Origin: Spirosoma montaniterrae
Lineage (GTDB): Bacteria; Bacteroidota; Bacteroidia; Cytophagales; Spirosomataceae
Direction of reading: 5' to 3'
Length of the DNA: 64,000 nucleotides
NCBI RefSeq assembly: GCF_001988955.1
Contig: NZ_CP014263.1
Span: 3,566,001-3,630,000, forward strand
Below the pieces are notes generated by a model. That model made no database searches. It was given only the letters and a program-made list of their open reading frames with translations, and had not been told where the DNA came from. Made by a program: the position numbers and the translations under genes. This document shows, piece after piece, positions 35,647-45,018 of the stretch (the first letter of the stretch is position 1; each line of letters begins with the position of its first letter).

Positions 35647-37334
35647 AGAAAGTAGCATTTGGAACGTTGGTCAAGCTGTTAAAAGGGAAAAAGCACAACC
35701 CTTCTATTCAGCGTTCTACCACCTCAAAGCGATTTATCCAAATTGATGATTTACGTAATGACAAACTGGTAAAATTTACTGATGACAAATCGGGGGTTGA
35801 AGCGCATCAAAATGACCTGCTTATTGCCTGGGATGGGGCAAATGCCGGAACTGTTGGTTGGGGCTTGAATGGGTATGTGGGCAGTACTATTGTACTCATC
35901 CGTTTGAAGGAACCCGATCAGTGGCATACTCCCTTTTTAGGATTCTTTCTGCGTAGTCAGTTTAACACATTGCGTGCCAATACCACAGGGGCCACTATTC
36001 CTCATTTGAGCCGAATTTCGCTTGATAATCTACAAGTACCAGACATCAGTCTCGACGCCCAACGCCAGATTGCCCATATCCTCAGCCGAGCGGAGGAGTT
36101 GATTGCGGCCCGGCAACAGACCCTCGCCCTCTTGGACGACTTCTTAAAAAGCACCTTTTTCGATATGTTTGGCGACCCGGTGAATAATAAAAAGGGGTGG
36201 AAAGTGGAGAAGTTGGAGAAGTGTTTGACACGTATAGATAGTGGGTGGAGTCCGGTATGCCTGGATGAGGTCAAACAGAGTGATGAAGAATGGGCAATTC
36301 TGAAGTTAGGTGCTGTTACAAGTCGTTATTTTAAATCGAATGAGAATAAAAAACTTCCTGATAGTCTACGGCCACGTCCGAATATTGAAGTAAGAAAGAA
36401 CGACCTTCTATTCTCACGGAAGAACACAAGAGAGTTAGTTGGGGCGTGTGCATACGTCTTTGATACTCCCCCTGGACTCATGCTATCTGATACTATTTTC
36501 CGGTTAGTACATGATCAAAATGTACGCGGACAATATTTATGGTATCTGCTAAACGGTTCTAAATTTAGGAAGAGTGTTCAAGCATTAGCTTCTGGGAGTG
36601 CTGGATCAATGCCCAATATATCGAAAGAAAGATTAGCAAATTTAAAAATCCCCCTCCCCTCCCTCGACCTGCAAAGCCAATTCGCTGAGATTGTCAACCG
36701 TGTGGAAGCGTTGAAAGCGCAGCAGCGCGAATCGCTCACGGAGTTGAAGCACCTGTATCAGAGCCTGATGCAGCGGGCGTTTGCGGGGCAGTTGGATGTC
36801 AGCCGCGTGGTGCTGCCGGCATTACCAACGGCAGAATCTCCCAAACCGAAGCGGACAGAACGCCCCAACACATCGCTGAAACCTGATTCCGACAACCTAC
36901 CCGCTCAGTTACCGCTGGGCTGGGATTTCCCCAACGCCTGGCAACAACCGCCCATGCAACGGGAGCAAAGCCCGGCCTCTACCCTGGACAACCTAATTCT
37001 CAAACACGGGCAGGGACTGAGAATTCTGTACAGCCCCGTACCCGCCACCGACGGCATACGTGACTTAGTACTAATACCAGCACATGAACCGGAGCGGCCC
37101 GTACCAACGCTGGATACCCTGACAACAGTACTAAGCCAGGCTGGTCCGGTGCCGTTCGAGATGCTACGTCGGGAGCTTGGCACTGTAGCTTATACAAACC
37201 TGAAACGACTAATTTTCGAGGGACTCGAACAGGGCGAAATCTATCAGGAATTCGACGACGAAACGAATACCGCGGCCGACTCGCTGACGCAGGGCCGTAT
37301 TCTGTTAACGGTAACGCCAACTCCCATCACCTGA
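35643..37334 (+). CDS. hsdS: Type I specificity subunit HsdS with extended C-terminus
   Basis: 563 residues, much longer than the usual 400-450. Target-recognition domain 1 spans about 1-135, then the conserved coiled-coil spacer QRQIAHILSRAEELIAARQQ and DDFLKSTFFDMFGDP. Domain 2 spans about 185-335 and the second spacer contains SLTELKHLYQSLMQRAFAG. An unusual extension (about 385-563) follows: a Pro-rich linker, then a segment resembling a winged helix (TTVLSQAGPVPFEMLRREL). Both recognition domains, most clearly the second (about 36180-36660), are AT-richer than the rest of the gene, suggesting exchange by recombination. It overlaps the ATPase gene by one base. Confidence 0.93.
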   Translation: MKKVAFGTLVKLLKGKKHNPSIQRSTTSKRFIQIDDLRNDKLVKFTDDKSGVEAHQNDLLIAWDGANAGTVGWGLNGYVGSTIVLIRLKEPDQWHTPFLGFFLRSQFNTLRANTTGATIPHLSRISLDNLQVPDISLDAQRQIAHILSRAEELIAARQQTLALLDDFLKSTFFDMFGDPVNNKKGWKVEKLEKCLTRIDSGWSPVCLDEVKQSDEEWAILKLGAVTSRYFKSNENKKLPDSLRPRPNIEVRKNDLLFSRKNTRELVGACAYVFDTPPGLMLSDTIFRLVHDQNVRGQYLWYLLNGSKFRKSVQALASGSAGSMPNISKERLANLKIPLPSLDLQSQFAEIVNRVEALKAQQRESLTELKHLYQSLMQRAFAGQLDVSRVVLPALPTAESPKPKRTERPNTSLKPDSDNLPAQLPLGWDFPNAWQQPPMQREQSPASTLDNLILKHGQGLRILYSPVPATDGIRDLVLIPAHEPERPVPTLDTLTTVLSQAGPVPFEMLRRELGTVAYTNLKRLIFEGLEQGEIYQEFDDETNTAADSLTQGRILLTVTPTPIT

Positions 37335-39172
37335 TGCGTCTGCTCAACCTGCATCTGCACACACCATTTCGGGGGTTGCCCGCCGATTTTCACATTGGCT
37401 TTCGGTCCGGCACTGTTCCTACTTACGAGCAATTGGAGCCCATCTGCTTCGTAGGGCTGAACGGCTCCGGCAAGTCGAACGTATTACAGGTGCTGGCCGA
37501 GATTTTCTATTGCGTAGAGTATCAGTGGCTGGTTGGCAAAAGCGGAGTTCGTCATAAGGATATCTGGATCGACAACGAGTTCATCAGGCATCTGGCGTTC
37601 AGCCTCCACTACGTACCCGATAAGCTATCGTGGCAGTTGGCTCAGCAAGACACCAAGCTGTCTGCGTTGCCGGGTTTTGTACCGCCGGACGTCGATTTTG
37701 TCCGGTTGTTTCCTGTTATACGCATCACCAAAGAGACTGGCAAACAAGCCGACTGGCAACTGCTCCAAACCGAAGATTTCAGGCAGCTAACCCCCGTTGC
37801 TGATTACCTGATAACCCCGCCCCTGCCCCGGCACGTAGTGGGCTACTCATCGGGCATGAACGAGTTGATATCCAACCCGTTTATTCGGTTAGACGTGTTC
37901 TATGCCGAGCGATTGTTTCAGCAGACAAGCCACGACGATACTTTTTCGGGCGACGACGCCGAATGGCAATCGCAGGGTTACCCCGAAGATGATTTCGACA
38001 CCGAATCACTACCCGCCGACTGGACTCCCGATCAGGCAAGCCGCAACCGGTTGCTATATCTTGACTACGAGTCGAACAAGCTCATTACGCTGGCCAACTT
38101 CCTGATCCCAGACCGCAAACAACTGCCTTTGCTCTACGACATGGCCCGTATCGAAGACGTTCGGTCGTTCACCATCACCATCAACTACCCGTACACGCTC
38201 GACAGCGAAGGCGAACCTCTGCGGTCCATCCCGCTGCCCACGCTGCTCAACCAGACTATCGACAAACTGACTCGCTGCGCCACCACCTGGACCGGCGGTG
38301 CCCCCGAAGCCGAACAGCCGGTACGTTTACAACTCGACTTCTGGGTCAATCAGGCCACCAAAAAGGCTTTCAATCACCACTTTCGCACCGCCGATAACCT
38401 CCTGAACGAACTCTACGGCCTGCGACTACTGAACGTACTGAATTATTCTGAAACCCTCCGTCAACGCATTAAAACAGCCGACGCCGACGACAACCTGTCC
38501 ATGCTACTGCCCCGTCCGGAGCCGCAAGACGCGTCATTTCATGTAGGCAATCTAAAGCTATTGAAAGCTGGCTCGGCGCAGTCTATTCCATACCGGAGCC
38601 TGTCGGACGGCGAGCATCAACTGCTGCATGTATTTGGGGCTATGATGCTCATGGAACAGCCCGGTACGCTGTTTCTGTTCGACGAACCCGAAACTCACTT
38701 CAATCCTGAATGGCGCAGCCGGTTCGTGAGCCTGCTGAACCAGATTGTCGCCGACCCCGAACCAGACCCGAACAGTCCGAAAAAAATACGCGAACAGGAG
38801 GTATTGCTGACCTCGCACTCGCCCTTTATTGTATCGGACTGCAAACCCGAAAACGTGTTTGTGTTTGAACGCCAGTCGGGCGGTACGGTAACGTATCGGC
38901 GGGCGGCTGATGAACACTTTAGCGAAACCGGGCCGTTCAACACCTTCGGTGCATCGGAGAGTTTAATTCTGGAGACTGTCTTTCGAAAACAGGACAGCGT
39001 ATCGCACCTGGTGCTGGAGACTATCGAGCGAATCAAACGGGAGGCCGATACGCTTGATGCAGTTCGCACCGGCAAACGTGAACTGCTGCAACTGGGCGAA
39101 TCCATCGAAAAATTCGACGCGCTCAATTTTCTGAACAAACGGGAGAAACAACTACTAAACTCAACGCTCTGA
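37334..39172 (+). CDS. Restriction system-associated AAA-family ATPase
   Basis: 612 residues, with a Walker A motif GLNGSGKSN at 41-49, an ABC-like signature SLSDGEHQLLHVFGAMML, Walker B FLFDEPETHFNP with the aspartate at about 450, and the switch histidine in TSHSPFIVSD. It resembles the SMC/OLD-like ATPases found next to type I modification genes and, in architecture, PtuA of Septu. It would use ATP to control or load the nuclease encoded next. It starts at the hsdS stop (1-base overlap) and is followed after 4 bases by the HNH gene. Confidence 0.85.
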   Translation: MRLLNLHLHTPFRGLPADFHIGFRSGTVPTYEQLEPICFVGLNGSGKSNVLQVLAEIFYCVEYQWLVGKSGVRHKDIWIDNEFIRHLAFSLHYVPDKLSWQLAQQDTKLSALPGFVPPDVDFVRLFPVIRITKETGKQADWQLLQTEDFRQLTPVADYLITPPLPRHVVGYSSGMNELISNPFIRLDVFYAERLFQQTSHDDTFSGDDAEWQSQGYPEDDFDTESLPADWTPDQASRNRLLYLDYESNKLITLANFLIPDRKQLPLLYDMARIEDVRSFTITINYPYTLDSEGEPLRSIPLPTLLNQTIDKLTRCATTWTGGAPEAEQPVRLQLDFWVNQATKKAFNHHFRTADNLLNELYGLRLLNVLNYSETLRQRIKTADADDNLSMLLPRPEPQDASFHVGNLKLLKAGSAQSIPYRSLSDGEHQLLHVFGAMMLMEQPGTLFLFDEPETHFNPEWRSRFVSLLNQIVADPEPDPNSPKKIREQEVLLTSHSPFIVSDCKPENVFVFERQSGGTVTYRRAADEHFSETGPFNTFGASESLILETVFRKQDSVSHLVLETIERIKREADTLDAVRTGKRELLQLGESIEKFDALNFLNKREKQLLNSTL

Positions 39173-39176
39173 TGCC

Positions 39177-40241
39177 GTGATCTATACATACCGCTATCTA
39201 AACCACTCCATCAATCAATTTCACGACAACATAGCCTATTTTTTTGAGCAGCTATTTGCCCTGAACCTGTTGGCGTTTGATGCTACCGTGCTGTTTCGTG
39301 ACGACTTTCTGCTCCTAATCCAGTCATCGAAAGTACTGTTACGGCGCTTCGAGACAATTGTACCCACCTACCATCAGCTTACGAATGCGGAACAGGCTTT
39401 GGTGCAGGAAGCATTCCGGAATAACAATGACATTGAGACGATCTGCCAGTGCGGTTGCCACCCCTACAAATACAATGATCTGCCATCTGGCATTCGTGAG
39501 CCGCTGAAAGACCTCTTCATGTCGTTGTGGGAGGATTATTCTCAATTCAAGAAAGTGAATAGTGCCTACGGAACGGTCAAAAATCATTTTGATATGTTTG
39601 TCAGTCATAACCATCAGGACGCGCTGCTTTGTCCATTCTGCGGCATTAATATCCTGCAACCGTCAGAGGGGTTGTATCGTGATGCCTACGACCATTTTAT
39701 ACCCAAAGCGGTCTATCCATTCAACTCCGTCAATTTCAAAAACCTACTTCCCATCTGCTACGTCTGCAACAGCAACGCCAAGAGGGCCAAAGACGTACCG
39801 TTCGATGATACCGGTGCCCAACGAGCCATAACCTATCCCTACAAAAATCAACCGGATCGGTATGTAGAAGCGCACATACAGTACGAATCAGCCTATGACC
39901 AATCAGACCAAACTTTACTGAGTGATACAAAAACGCTTTGGCACGTAACGCTAACCGAGTCGGGTAGCTACACCCCCGAAATGGATAGCTGGAATGCTAT
40001 TTATTGCATACGAAAGCGGTATCAGGATCACATTGGGCAGTTCGAGCGTCAATGGTGGAAAGAAATGACCAAACGATACAAACGTCGGCGTCATACTACG
40101 TTCGACGACTTCAAAGCCGATATCCTCGACGACTATAATGAGCTTTCTGCTATACCGATGGCAATACTCCGTAAGGCATACTATAGCCACCTGTTTCAAA
40201 CCCCCGACATCGATAAACTAATCGAAGCCACTGTTGCCTGA
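39177..40241 (+). CDS. HNH-type nuclease candidate (PtuB-like)
   Basis: 354 residues. A zinc-finger-like HNH core has CPFC at 152-155, the DHFIP block with H173, and CYVCNSNAK at 194-201, matching the DH...N...CxxC layout of HNH endonucleases. Regions on both sides are helical. Together with the upstream ATPase it forms a PtuA-PtuB-like pair, here in an operon with type I modification and specificity genes. The start is a GTG at 39177. DNA is the inferred substrate; RNA or tRNA cannot be excluded. Confidence 0.8.
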   Translation: MIYTYRYLNHSINQFHDNIAYFFEQLFALNLLAFDATVLFRDDFLLLIQSSKVLLRRFETIVPTYHQLTNAEQALVQEAFRNNNDIETICQCGCHPYKYNDLPSGIREPLKDLFMSLWEDYSQFKKVNSAYGTVKNHFDMFVSHNHQDALLCPFCGINILQPSEGLYRDAYDHFIPKAVYPFNSVNFKNLLPICYVCNSNAKRAKDVPFDDTGAQRAITYPYKNQPDRYVEAHIQYESAYDQSDQTLLSDTKTLWHVTLTESGSYTPEMDSWNAIYCIRKRYQDHIGQFERQWWKEMTKRYKRRRHTTFDDFKADILDDYNELSAIPMAILRKAYYSHLFQTPDIDKLIEATVA

Positions 40242-43476: not shown

Positions 43477-43620
43477 TCACGAAAATGCCCCAAGCCCATC
43501 AATGTTAGAGCCGGTTTTGAGCGTCAGTTTTCTGACGTTACCCAGTGTTTTCATCGTTGGCGTTTTATACGCCTTCTTCGGAGTAGAAGTAGTTAGTAAA
43601 GCTTGTTTCGTTGATTTCAT
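43477..43620 (-). CDS. Lasso-type RiPP leader peptide gene (precursor candidate)
   Basis: A 47-residue peptide reading down from the ATG at 43620. It has a basic N-terminal leader, then the lasso-leader recognition pattern YxxPxLxxLGxVxxLT as YKTPTMKTLGNVRKLT at residues 18-33. The leader would end within LKT, and the core would be GSNIDGLGAFS, starting with the Gly that lasso cores require and with an Asp at core position 5 (a ring-closing Asp is normally at 7-9, so the true core start is uncertain). Lies 42 bases after a T9SS cargo gene on the same strand. No lasso cyclase or protease is in the window. Recognised from motif alone. Confidence 0.75.
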   Translation of the reverse strand: MKSTKQALLTTSTPKKAYKTPTMKTLGNVRKLTLKTGSNIDGLGAFS

Positions 43621-43662
43621 GCTTGTAGAAGGATTACAAAAAAGGTGCTATTGGTTTCAAAC

Positions 43663-44646
43663 CTATTGAACGAGTACTTTTAACGCTATCGGCTGACTAC
43701 CGCCCGCTTTACTAACTTTCAATAGGTAGATGCCTTTTGCTATTGACCCAACTGCCGAAACCGACACACTGTTCGGGTCGCCGGTTTTGGTAACCGTTAC
43801 CGGAATTTCCAGGCCTGCCTCGCTATACAACTGTAGCGTAGCCGATTGAGCGTCGAGCATCGACAGCATAAAAGTACCACCTGCGTTGGCGTTTGGAAAC
43901 ACTTTGGCAGGCATCTCCTGACCCAACGCGTGCCGAACCGCAATAATACGCGAATAGGCAAACGCCCCGCCAACGTCTTTTTGCTTGAGCCGGTAGTAGT
44001 ACGTCTCCCCATCCCGAACGGTAGCGTCCAGAAATTCGTAGGTAGATAGCTGAGTCGTGGTTTGCTGGCCTTTCACAAAGCCAACACGCTCGAACGAGTT
44101 GGCATTCAGACTTTTTTCTATGTCGAAGCCTTCGTTTTTGGTCTCCCACTGGGTTGCCCAATTCAGCAGAATGCCTTCGGGTTTTGAGATGCCATAAAAC
44201 GAAAGCAACTCAACGGGCAGCGGGCCGTTAAAAAGCTGCGTGGGACCAGTGCAGGTACTATTTCCCGATGTGGCCGTGCTACCCCTGAGTGAAAGCGAAC
44301 CACTACTACAAGGCAAGGTGATAGTAACCGCCGGAAAAAGCAGGTTGGCTCCGCTGGGCAAATCCTGATAACTACCCGAACAAGGCACCGAAGCCGCAGG
44401 AGTACCCGAGTAACATACCTGAACAACAGTAGCACCTATCGTGAAGGTGTACTCCGCGAGTTTAACCGAGCCACCTCTTTGATCTATGGTTACGGTTGGC
44501 TGAAACCGGAACGAGCAGTTGGTTCCCGTACCCGACAGATAACTCAGCGAATAGCTGTTTGTAACAACGCAGGGAGTCTGACTGGGCTGAGCAATCGCCT
44601 GATATAAACAACCCAGCCAGAAGAAAGTAAGTAATAATGTCTTCAT
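43663..44646 (-). CDS. Secreted protein with type IX secretion C-terminal domain
   Basis: 327 residues from the ATG at 44646, which begins a signal peptide (MKTLLLTFFWLGCLYQAIAQ). The mature N-terminal part has cysteine pairs and a beta-rich region, then LPVELLSFYGISKPEGILLNW to about residue 245, a fibronectin-like segment common before T9SS domains. The last ~75 residues match the type A C-terminal signal, with KVFPNANAGGTFML and a final KVLVQ. It should be exported by the outer-membrane type IX system. Function unknown. It precedes the small RiPP leader gene on the same strand and may be co-transcribed with it. Confidence 0.85.
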   Translation of the reverse strand: MKTLLLTFFWLGCLYQAIAQPSQTPCVVTNSYSLSYLSGTGTNCSFRFQPTVTIDQRGGSVKLAEYTFTIGATVVQVCYSGTPAASVPCSGSYQDLPSGANLLFPAVTITLPCSSGSLSLRGSTATSGNSTCTGPTQLFNGPLPVELLSFYGISKPEGILLNWATQWETKNEGFDIEKSLNANSFERVGFVKGQQTTTQLSTYEFLDATVRDGETYYYRLKQKDVGGAFAYSRIIAVRHALGQEMPAKVFPNANAGGTFMLSMLDAQSATLQLYSEAGLEIPVTVTKTGDPNSVSVSAVGSIAKGIYLLKVSKAGGSQPIALKVLVQ

Positions 44647-45018
44647 GCGAAAATGATCATAAGTAAAAATACTCATTGCTTGAAATTTACATGTGAAAAT
44701 GAATAGGCTTATTACCCATTTGGTAGCCCATCAATACAAATGCCAAATCAGTTTCTATTGACGTGTAGACCCTACCCAGAATTTTCATATGCACTAATAG
44801 ACTACTTCAGAACACAAAACAAAGAAATAATTGGTATGTAAGATAAAGTTTTGATTAAAAAAATTTCACTTCTGTTAATTCATCCCTGTATTCTAACGTT
44901 TACGTACAAACACTCAAAGTGTCTCGATCATGTTTAGTAAGAATGAACATATACTAAAAGCTATAGGGCTGTAGTTGCCATGTAGCGTTAATAATGTCGC
45001 GTGTAAGCAAAAAATAGT
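44647..45018. other. AT-rich intergenic region without a recognised gene
   Basis: A 372-base gap between two minus-strand genes. It is clearly richer in A and T than its surroundings. I see only very short open frames on either strand, no strong hairpin and no repeat. It must contain the promoter of the T9SS cargo gene near 44650-44700; no exact TAnnTTTG is visible there. Confidence 0.6.

Follow-up and report, generated by a model that had tools for sequence, protein, structure and literature searches.

Can a small open reading frame (ORF) with a lasso-type leader be a working precursor gene when none of the enzymes that would mature its product lie nearby? The first-pass annotation of a 64,000-nucleotide stretch of the Spirosoma montaniterrae chromosome, hereafter the window, described such an ORF at 43477-43620 on the minus strand and offered two explanations: that the enzymes are encoded elsewhere, or that the leader has been taken over by another maturation pathway. 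Our analysis indicates that this small gene very probably encodes the precursor of a knotted "lasso" peptide, with the enzymes for its maturation about 3 million bases away. In this bacterial group, precursors of this kind are mostly found right behind the gene of a secreted surface protein, and a sortase-like gene accompanies the lasso genes; this points to a connection between the two pathways that has not been reported before.

The precursor gene and its predicted core

The 47-codon ORF is present as described, translates as MKSTKQALLTTSTPKKAYKTPTMKTLGNVRKLTLKTGSNIDGLGAFS, and has a lasso-type leader in the motif-bearing stretch YKTPTMKTLGNVRKLT. The 'L' position of YxxPxL is occupied by Met (M23), which we counted as agreeing with the motif. 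The bare motif arises by chance about 0.1 times per 64 kb (four matches in 40 simulated windows; three in 1.77 Mb of reversed sequence), or roughly once per ten windows, and homology evidence was therefore needed. Two paralogues are present in the same 5.80-Mb genome (E 6e-14 and 4e-13), where a three-row profile revealed no additional copy at E up to 10. Homologues occur in 77 of 222 genomes of the family, and 27 of 36 congeneric genomes (Spirosoma, as far as they are named) carry such precursors. In a survey at class level, four of 395 genomes matched at E up to 1e-4, all of them from this family and the S. montaniterrae genome among them. A large protein database contained 250 homologous proteins at E up to 0.001; among the 120 listed, several from Spirosoma, Arcticibacterium, Marinilongibacter and Salmonirosea are named 'lasso RiPP family leader peptide-containing protein' by NCBI, and the remaining names are often 'hypothetical protein'.

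The window copy and one paralogue differ at 26 sites in 30 codons, 18 of them third positions, with 14 synonymous and seven non-synonymous codons, which is a coding-type substitution pattern. The NCBIfam lasso models match the ORF below cut-off (16.4 of 33 and 13.4 of 19 bits), a shortfall that is one of model threshold and concerns no defining feature of lasso precursors; Pfam gave no match to the ORF. Judged by its sequence, the ORF is a real, coding gene of the lasso-precursor type. For the comparisons below, the in-genus genome table totals 73 matches, of which 71 were listed and all 71 read; of the 79 copies listed from other genera we read 49, which brings the total to 120 of 150.

According to the available text of PMC10368454, lasso leaders have a conserved Thr at −2 and, further upstream, YxxPxL at −17 to −12. 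The recognition stretch of the window precursor (43522..43569, minus strand) comprises Y18 (−17), P21 (−14), M23 (−12), L26 G27 and T33 (−2), the Thr agreeing with the count from Tyr(−17), and its Y, P, G and T are invariant in a 12-row alignment. Because the Tyr(−17) and Thr(−2) rules agree, the core is placed to start at Lys35. The predicted core, KTGSNIDGLGAFS (43480..43518, minus strand), is numbered K1, T2, G3, S4, N5, I6, D7, G8, L9, G10, A11, F12, S13; the codons of Lys1, Ser4 and the ring acceptor Asp7 lie at 43516-43518, 43507-43509 and 43498-43500, respectively. Asp7 falls among positions 7-9, at which an Asp or Glu acceptor is expected, and a Lys1-Asp7 ring is predicted. The first-pass annotation had begun the core at a Gly. 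Both register rules oppose a start at Gly37, and counted from there (GSNID) the acceptor Asp would be residue 5, short of the seven to nine residues that a ring needs, so that this part of the annotation is not supported.

The same register was applied to the other copies with a script that demanded Thr at −2. It fitted 119 of 120, one of them (G146) wrongly; this copy and the unfitted one from G217 were set by hand. After this adjustment Lys occupies the first core position in 107 of 120 copies, and among the 119 fitted copies Lys1 occurs together with Asp7 in 106 and Ser4 is found in 115. The 13 non-Lys1 copies comprise 11 with Asp8 (G146 as set by hand) and two (G182, G202) that end after four residues; ten of the 13 sit in stretches with a cyclase match. 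One more leader-motif ORF, outside the 120 counted (L145:7102-7293, minus strand, G216), has a Gly1-Asp8 core and lies beside a 649-aa cyclase-like ORF, near B2. Two non-Lys1 precursors, in stretches L166 and L167, stand directly before a cyclase-like gene some 600-700 kb from B2; their cores, GKIGSQED and GKLGSAAD, have Lys2, and a C25 match lies nearby.

The first residues listed for lasso peptides in the available part of PMC12670498 are Gly, Cys, Ser and Ala, with Asn newly reported, and the window core with its Lys1 falls outside this list, which is a rule of experience and no definition of the family. Metanodin, described in the same paper, likewise has a core start set by Thr(−2) despite an unusual residue 1, Asn1 there versus Lys1 here. 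Lys1 as the first residue would be new if confirmed. Xanthomonins have a short tail like that of the window core, and begin with Gly1 rather than Lys1. A seven-residue ring, as predicted here, is given for xanthomonins by a title cited in PMC7549694 and PMC13352647; as far as the available text of PMC7549694 goes, their precursors lie inside the cluster, whereas the window precursor is distant.

Enzymes encoded elsewhere and probable maturation in trans

The window was reported to contain no lasso enzymes, and this held. The two PF00733 matches of the genome (one strong, one of 21 bits at 3358884) and its single PF13471 match all lie outside the window, leaving it without cyclase, B2 or B1, and tblastn (E 1e-8) with the organism's own C, N, K, B1, B2, lipoprotein and C25 proteins gave no match there. 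The proposed search of the whole genome, which yielded the two paralogues, also found a single lasso enzyme cluster at C1:495.5-500.3 kb, 3.1 Mb along the contig from the window ORF, in agreement with the first of the two original explanations. The genome therefore holds B1, B2 and C. The locus is ordered C25 gene, lipoprotein-like gene, cyclase C, nucleotidyltransferase N, HPr-type kinase K, B2 and B1. B2 scores 83.3 bits (NCBIfam cut-off 33) and the PqqD domain of B1 64.2 bits (cut-off 23.4); the AsnB-like cyclase begins MGGI, with no Cys2 nucleophile, and scores 309 bits to a lasso cyclase model. For the cyclase and the PqqD domain the scores exceed the Pfam cut-offs and not those of the NCBIfam subfamily models. 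Recurring beside the cyclase is a protein of about 234 aa that resembles a lipoprotein and has no NCBIfam match (L209:2323-3027, minus strand, and homologues).

The HPr-type kinase (PF07475, 39.4 bits, cut-off 33.3) and the nucleotidyltransferase (PF14907, NTP_transf_5, 123.8 bits, cut-off 31.2) are the pair found in phosphorylated or phosphoglycosylated lasso systems. In the available texts, the bsf cluster of Bradymonas sediminis (PMC10368454) and the paeninodin/pseudomycoidin-type clusters (PMC8498205) share with this locus discrete B1, B2, C, HPr-type K and N genes as well as YxxPxL at −17 to −12. BsfK phosphorylates core Ser3 (PMC10368454), and the cores compared here conserve Ser4. The bsf cluster differs in having its precursor inside the cluster, a Gly1-Asp8 ring, Ile at −2 and an ABC transporter (PMC10368454), whereas in S. 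montaniterrae the window precursor is 3.1 Mb off beside a type IX secretion system (T9SS) gene, the ring would be Lys1-Asp7, and a PorU2 homologue is present at the enzyme locus. On reading the cluster ORFs we recognised no exporter among them, and this counts against the explanation that we favour.

A precursor adjoining its enzymes, which is the usual though not a defining arrangement, is not seen in S. montaniterrae: the 19 kb surrounding the cluster contain no ORF that carries the strict leader motif. The full clusters of G183 and G190 likewise have no leader motif in the 16 kb searched, and each of these genomes has one precursor match elsewhere. In G190 this sole match adjoins a second B1-like gene, so that its precursor is not wholly without local enzymes. 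Maturation in trans is the simplest reading of the gene content of these three genomes. Relatives have this leader immediately ahead of B1-B2, and 20 of the 71 listed in-genus copies, in 19 genomes, are within 10 kb of B2. HPr-type kinase and NTP_transf_5 are the families that recur next downstream of in-genus copies; outside the genus, close downstream neighbours are lasso-cyclase-like in 9 of 27 cases. Across the family, B2 was found in 75 of 77 precursor genomes versus 45 of 145 others (six of the 45 below the Pfam cut-off), kinship being ignored in these counts.

Of 66 in-genus stretches, 34 match none of the seven cluster proteins. In six others (L073, L080, L085, L086, L109, L131), C, N, K and B1 match near the precursor and B2 does not, which means that B2 may be shared in trans too; in five of these six genomes, and likewise in G187, B2 matches are located at another place on the chromosome or on a different contig.

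The gene order in S. spitsbergense (G211) is T9SS cargo, precursor, B1, B2, K and N, with C convergent. The S. montaniterrae unit at 473.6 kb resembles this cluster unit (cargo 86% and precursor 81% identical), and the native unit has therefore probably moved by about 26 kb. A transposase-like ORF, IS4-like by eye, lies about 1 kb before the relocated unit (L008:2170-3321, plus strand). Beside B1 of the S. montaniterrae cluster, an FtsE-like gene is split over two frames (L004:12260-12939, minus strand); in relatives the T9SS-precursor unit comes directly before B1.

T9SS cargo genes and a PorU2-type paralogue

The neighbours named in the first-pass annotation, a bestrophin gene and a T9SS cargo gene, fared differently. 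The T9SS gene lies upstream on the same strand, 42 nt away, and such a gene recurs at 51 of 71 in-genus copies; the convergent downstream gene is bestrophin-like by eye only, and in the short neighbour pieces read by eye a bestrophin neighbourhood was seen at the window copy and at none of the others. The partner (43663..44676, minus strand) is a T9SS type A cargo gene of 337 aa from its first ATG (TIGR04183, 26.1 bits, cut-off 23), with its C-terminal sorting domain at 43696..43902; an alternative ATG at 44646 gives 327 aa with a signal-peptide-like start by eye. Its AlphaFold2 model has a pLDDT of 86.6 and a pTM of 0.46, and among the best 50 Foldseek matches in the PDB most are FnIII/Ig-domain chains with low TM-scores, so the model suggests an all-beta protein resembling Ig/FnIII-like domains and nothing more specific. 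A simple scan of the 42-nt gap (43621..43662, minus strand) detected no promoter- or terminator-like site on the same strand. Elsewhere in the window, an AAA ATPase followed by an HNH-type protein (37334-40241, plus strand) resembles, by eye, a Septu-like defence pair.

All three dispersed precursors of S. montaniterrae are found 42-56 nt behind a T9SS-tailed gene, the other two partners scoring 39.2 bits to TIGR04183 (above cut-off) and 19.3 bits (below it; the 3306.8-kb partner). Background abundance of such genes was considered and rejected as the source of this pairing, as the genome has only 52 T9SS-tail matches at E up to 0.01 (45 above cut-off), yet all three precursors are paired. Within the genus, an ORF of 150 aa or more on the same strand stops 17-143 nt before the precursor in 51 of 71 copies (median gap 48 nt), and all 51 of these ORFs match TIGR04183 (E up to 0.01). 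The nearest downstream ORF is T9SS-tailed in 5 of 70 cases, most of the five being, by coordinates, the next tandem unit; these neighbour sets are unmatched, the upstream one being restricted to the same strand and less than 200 nt and the downstream one taking the nearest ORF on either strand at any distance. The remaining 20 copies have no close same-strand T9SS gene, and five of them have no upstream 150-aa ORF in the stretch covered. For 45 copies from outside the genus, a T9SS tail is present in 18 of the 24 close neighbours upstream and in 7 of the 27 downstream. In S. fluviale (G188), four units occur within 8 kb.

Distances between precursors and between partner tails are correlated (rank correlation 0.61, a value reached in none of 500 permutations). 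Also against mere background abundance, 18 other genes with the partner module, drawn from 42 rows in six genomes after two weak G213 rows (71 and 55 bits) were left out, have no precursor within 700 nt downstream. One of these (L192) has a partner-type tail and no precursor, and two loose-pattern matches downstream of such genes (L198, L199) fall within a longer frame that resembles a membrane protein. One lasso precursor has, a short way downstream, a Gly/Cys-rich peptide with a leader of double-glycine type by eye (L009:7130-7318, minus strand) and, close to it (L009:1199-6629, minus strand), a protein with C39, VKOR and thioredoxin domains and, by eye, a C39-type ABC transporter and an HlyD-like protein; this looks like a separate bacteriocin-type system.

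The pairing follows the type of core. With T9SS calls made from a profile of in-genus tails and slightly wider neighbour sets than in the out-of-genus counts above, a T9SS gene was found beside 81 of 107 Lys1 copies versus 0 of 13 others (Fisher 9e-8, kinship ignored), leaving 26 Lys1 copies without such a neighbour. Outside the genus the corresponding counts are 30 of 39 and 0 of 10 (1e-5, kinship ignored). Five genomes (G049, G161, G164, G167, G210) have both kinds of precursor.

The C25 protein of the enzyme locus (882-aa frame) falls in the NCBIfam family 'putative type IX secretion system sortase PorU2' (NF052324, 954.8 bits, cut-off 450), a name that calls the sortase function itself 'putative'. 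Like the T9SS sortase PorU, it has a C25 domain with conserved His and Cys; unlike PorU, it is a separate paralogue that sits with the lasso genes. H614 and C647 are invariant in nine aligned C25 proteins and probably form the catalytic pair. A PDB sequence search with this protein gave no match, and a search with NF052318 gave none in six genomes nor in the controls. In S. montaniterrae the gene (L206:7570-10826, plus strand, equal to C1:491569-494825) is in two overlapping frames near the C-terminal sorting domain, and this split may be either a sequencing error or real.

A C25 gene is found near the lasso genes in 26 of 27 precursor-bearing genomes of the genus, G190 being the exception, versus 0 of 9 others (kinship ignored). 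One of the nine, G200, has B2 and distant B1, C and K matches, and may therefore make another lasso. The 115 PF01364 rows of the 36 genomes correspond to 107 genes (six second pieces, one 30-bit match and one match below cut-off were dropped), of which 31 are within 15 kb of a precursor or B2, the distance in S. montaniterrae being that to B2. None of these 31 is among the 34 C25 genes above 350 bits, from which the one scanned, in S. montaniterrae, is named PorU; four more lasso-linked proteins scanned (G191, G203, G211, G183) are all PorU2. Other PorU2 members occur away from lasso genes in S. montaniterrae and G200, so the PorU2 family is not lasso-specific. The lasso-linked PorU2 of S. montaniterrae is 57-59% identical to four lasso-linked copies and 41% to a fifth, compared with 35-36% to two other PorU2 proteins and 21% to PorU. 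What tracks the precursors, by these comparisons, is the paralogue rather than the PorU2 family. C25 matches are also seen beside cores without Lys1, in G161 (no Lys) and in G056 and G061 (Lys2).

A proposed pathway and its alternatives

We consider it likely that the product of the window ORF is a lasso precursor, one that undergoes maturation in trans and has a functional tie to the T9SS, leaving any covalent bond out of this estimate. Given their shared strand and short gap, the cargo gene and precursor would probably be co-transcribed. From what is known of the enzyme families, the PqqD-like B1 encoded at the distant cluster would bind the YxxPxL leader and B2 would cut after Leu34, one residue beyond Thr33. 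The AsnB-like cyclase would then join the N-terminal amine of Lys1 to Asp7. The resulting peptide of 13 residues would consist of a seven-residue ring and the tail GLGAFS, and either its conserved Ser4 or its C-terminal Ser may be modified by kinase K and subsequently by N. The peptide would act at the cell surface together with the T9SS cargo, the PorU2-type sortase homologue being part of the lasso locus. The genomic links were observed; the ring and the knot, like the conjugation considered next, are predictions from sequence.

In P. gingivalis, PorU joins cargo to free amines, including medium peptides and lysine when A-LPS is absent (PMC4560394; PMC10202324, as their available texts report). 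With the N-terminus locked in the ring, the side chain of Lys1 would be the free primary amine in most cores, and the two points together led us to propose conjugation of lasso and cargo: PorU2 would remove the sorting domain of the cargo and join its new C-terminus to the Lys1 side-chain amine. This is the likeliest form of the link that we can name, although we hold it tentatively and think it rather unlikely to be right as it stands. The fallback is co-expression without a covalent bond.

That co-expression is all there is has somewhat less than an even chance of being correct. The product would then be an ordinary secreted antimicrobial or signalling lasso, to which the T9SS gene lends its promoter, and PorU2 would process only the cargo. 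A single N-terminal domain common to the partners is ruled out: their N-terminal parts vary (11 of 51 are ice-binding-like) and the T9SS module is what they share, so that no specific binding partner is evident. The kinase and nucleotidyltransferase also fit known tailored lasso clusters, as described in the available parts of PMC7533575 and PMC8498205. Co-expression by itself, however, leaves unexplained both the bias of Lys1 copies towards T9SS neighbours and the way in which the PorU2-type paralogue tracks the precursors.

Improbable by comparison is that the dispersed copies are relics, precursors that were duplicated or moved and have ceased to be matured. The S. montaniterrae cluster is without a T9SS-precursor unit, the 473.6-kb unit looks like a relocated unit of the S. 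spitsbergense type with its transposase-like ORF nearby, and there are odd copies, with a frame that runs on in G213 and cores ending after HAGS in G182 and G202. Against decay, none of the 71 listed in-genus matches has an internal stop, substitutions are of the coding type, Ser4 and Asp7 are retained in nearly all copies, and genomes with only dispersed precursors keep full enzyme sets.

The second original explanation, a leader taken over by a non-lasso pathway, or a core from Gly37 with other chemistry, is very improbable. It could draw on the Asp four residues after Gly37, the window without enzymes, and YcaO-type genes close downstream in 3 of 27 out-of-genus cases, but the register rules and alignment with the G/A/S1-D8 cores of sister copies set residue 1 at Lys35, and the families recurrent downstream in the genus are those of tailored lassos, HPr-type kinase and NTP_transf_5. 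A chance ORF without function, for which only the background frequency of the bare motif speaks, has next to no probability in view of the two paralogues, the coding-type substitutions, and the recurrent gene order around homologues across the family.

In openly licensed PMC literature we found no paper with both 'lasso peptide' and 'type IX secretion', none with three of T9SS, RiPP, precursor peptide and sorting domain and, among the matches listed, no account of lasso precursors acted on in trans or of lassos beginning with Lys1. The prochlorosins (ProcA/ProcM lanthipeptides) are a familiar case of scattered precursors that share a single set of enzymes in trans, with other chemistry and no T9SS pairing. 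If the preferred reading, a precursor matured in trans and tied to the T9SS, is true, lasso biosynthesis acts in trans on scattered precursors, Lys serves as the ring-forming first residue of a seven-residue ring, and type IX secretion gains a link to a RiPP pathway; dispersed precursors of this kind would escape genome mining confined to the vicinity of the enzymes. Should the conjugation also be true, every scattered pair of cargo and precursor would put on display a surface protein capped with a lasso, and a single enzyme cluster would serve them all.
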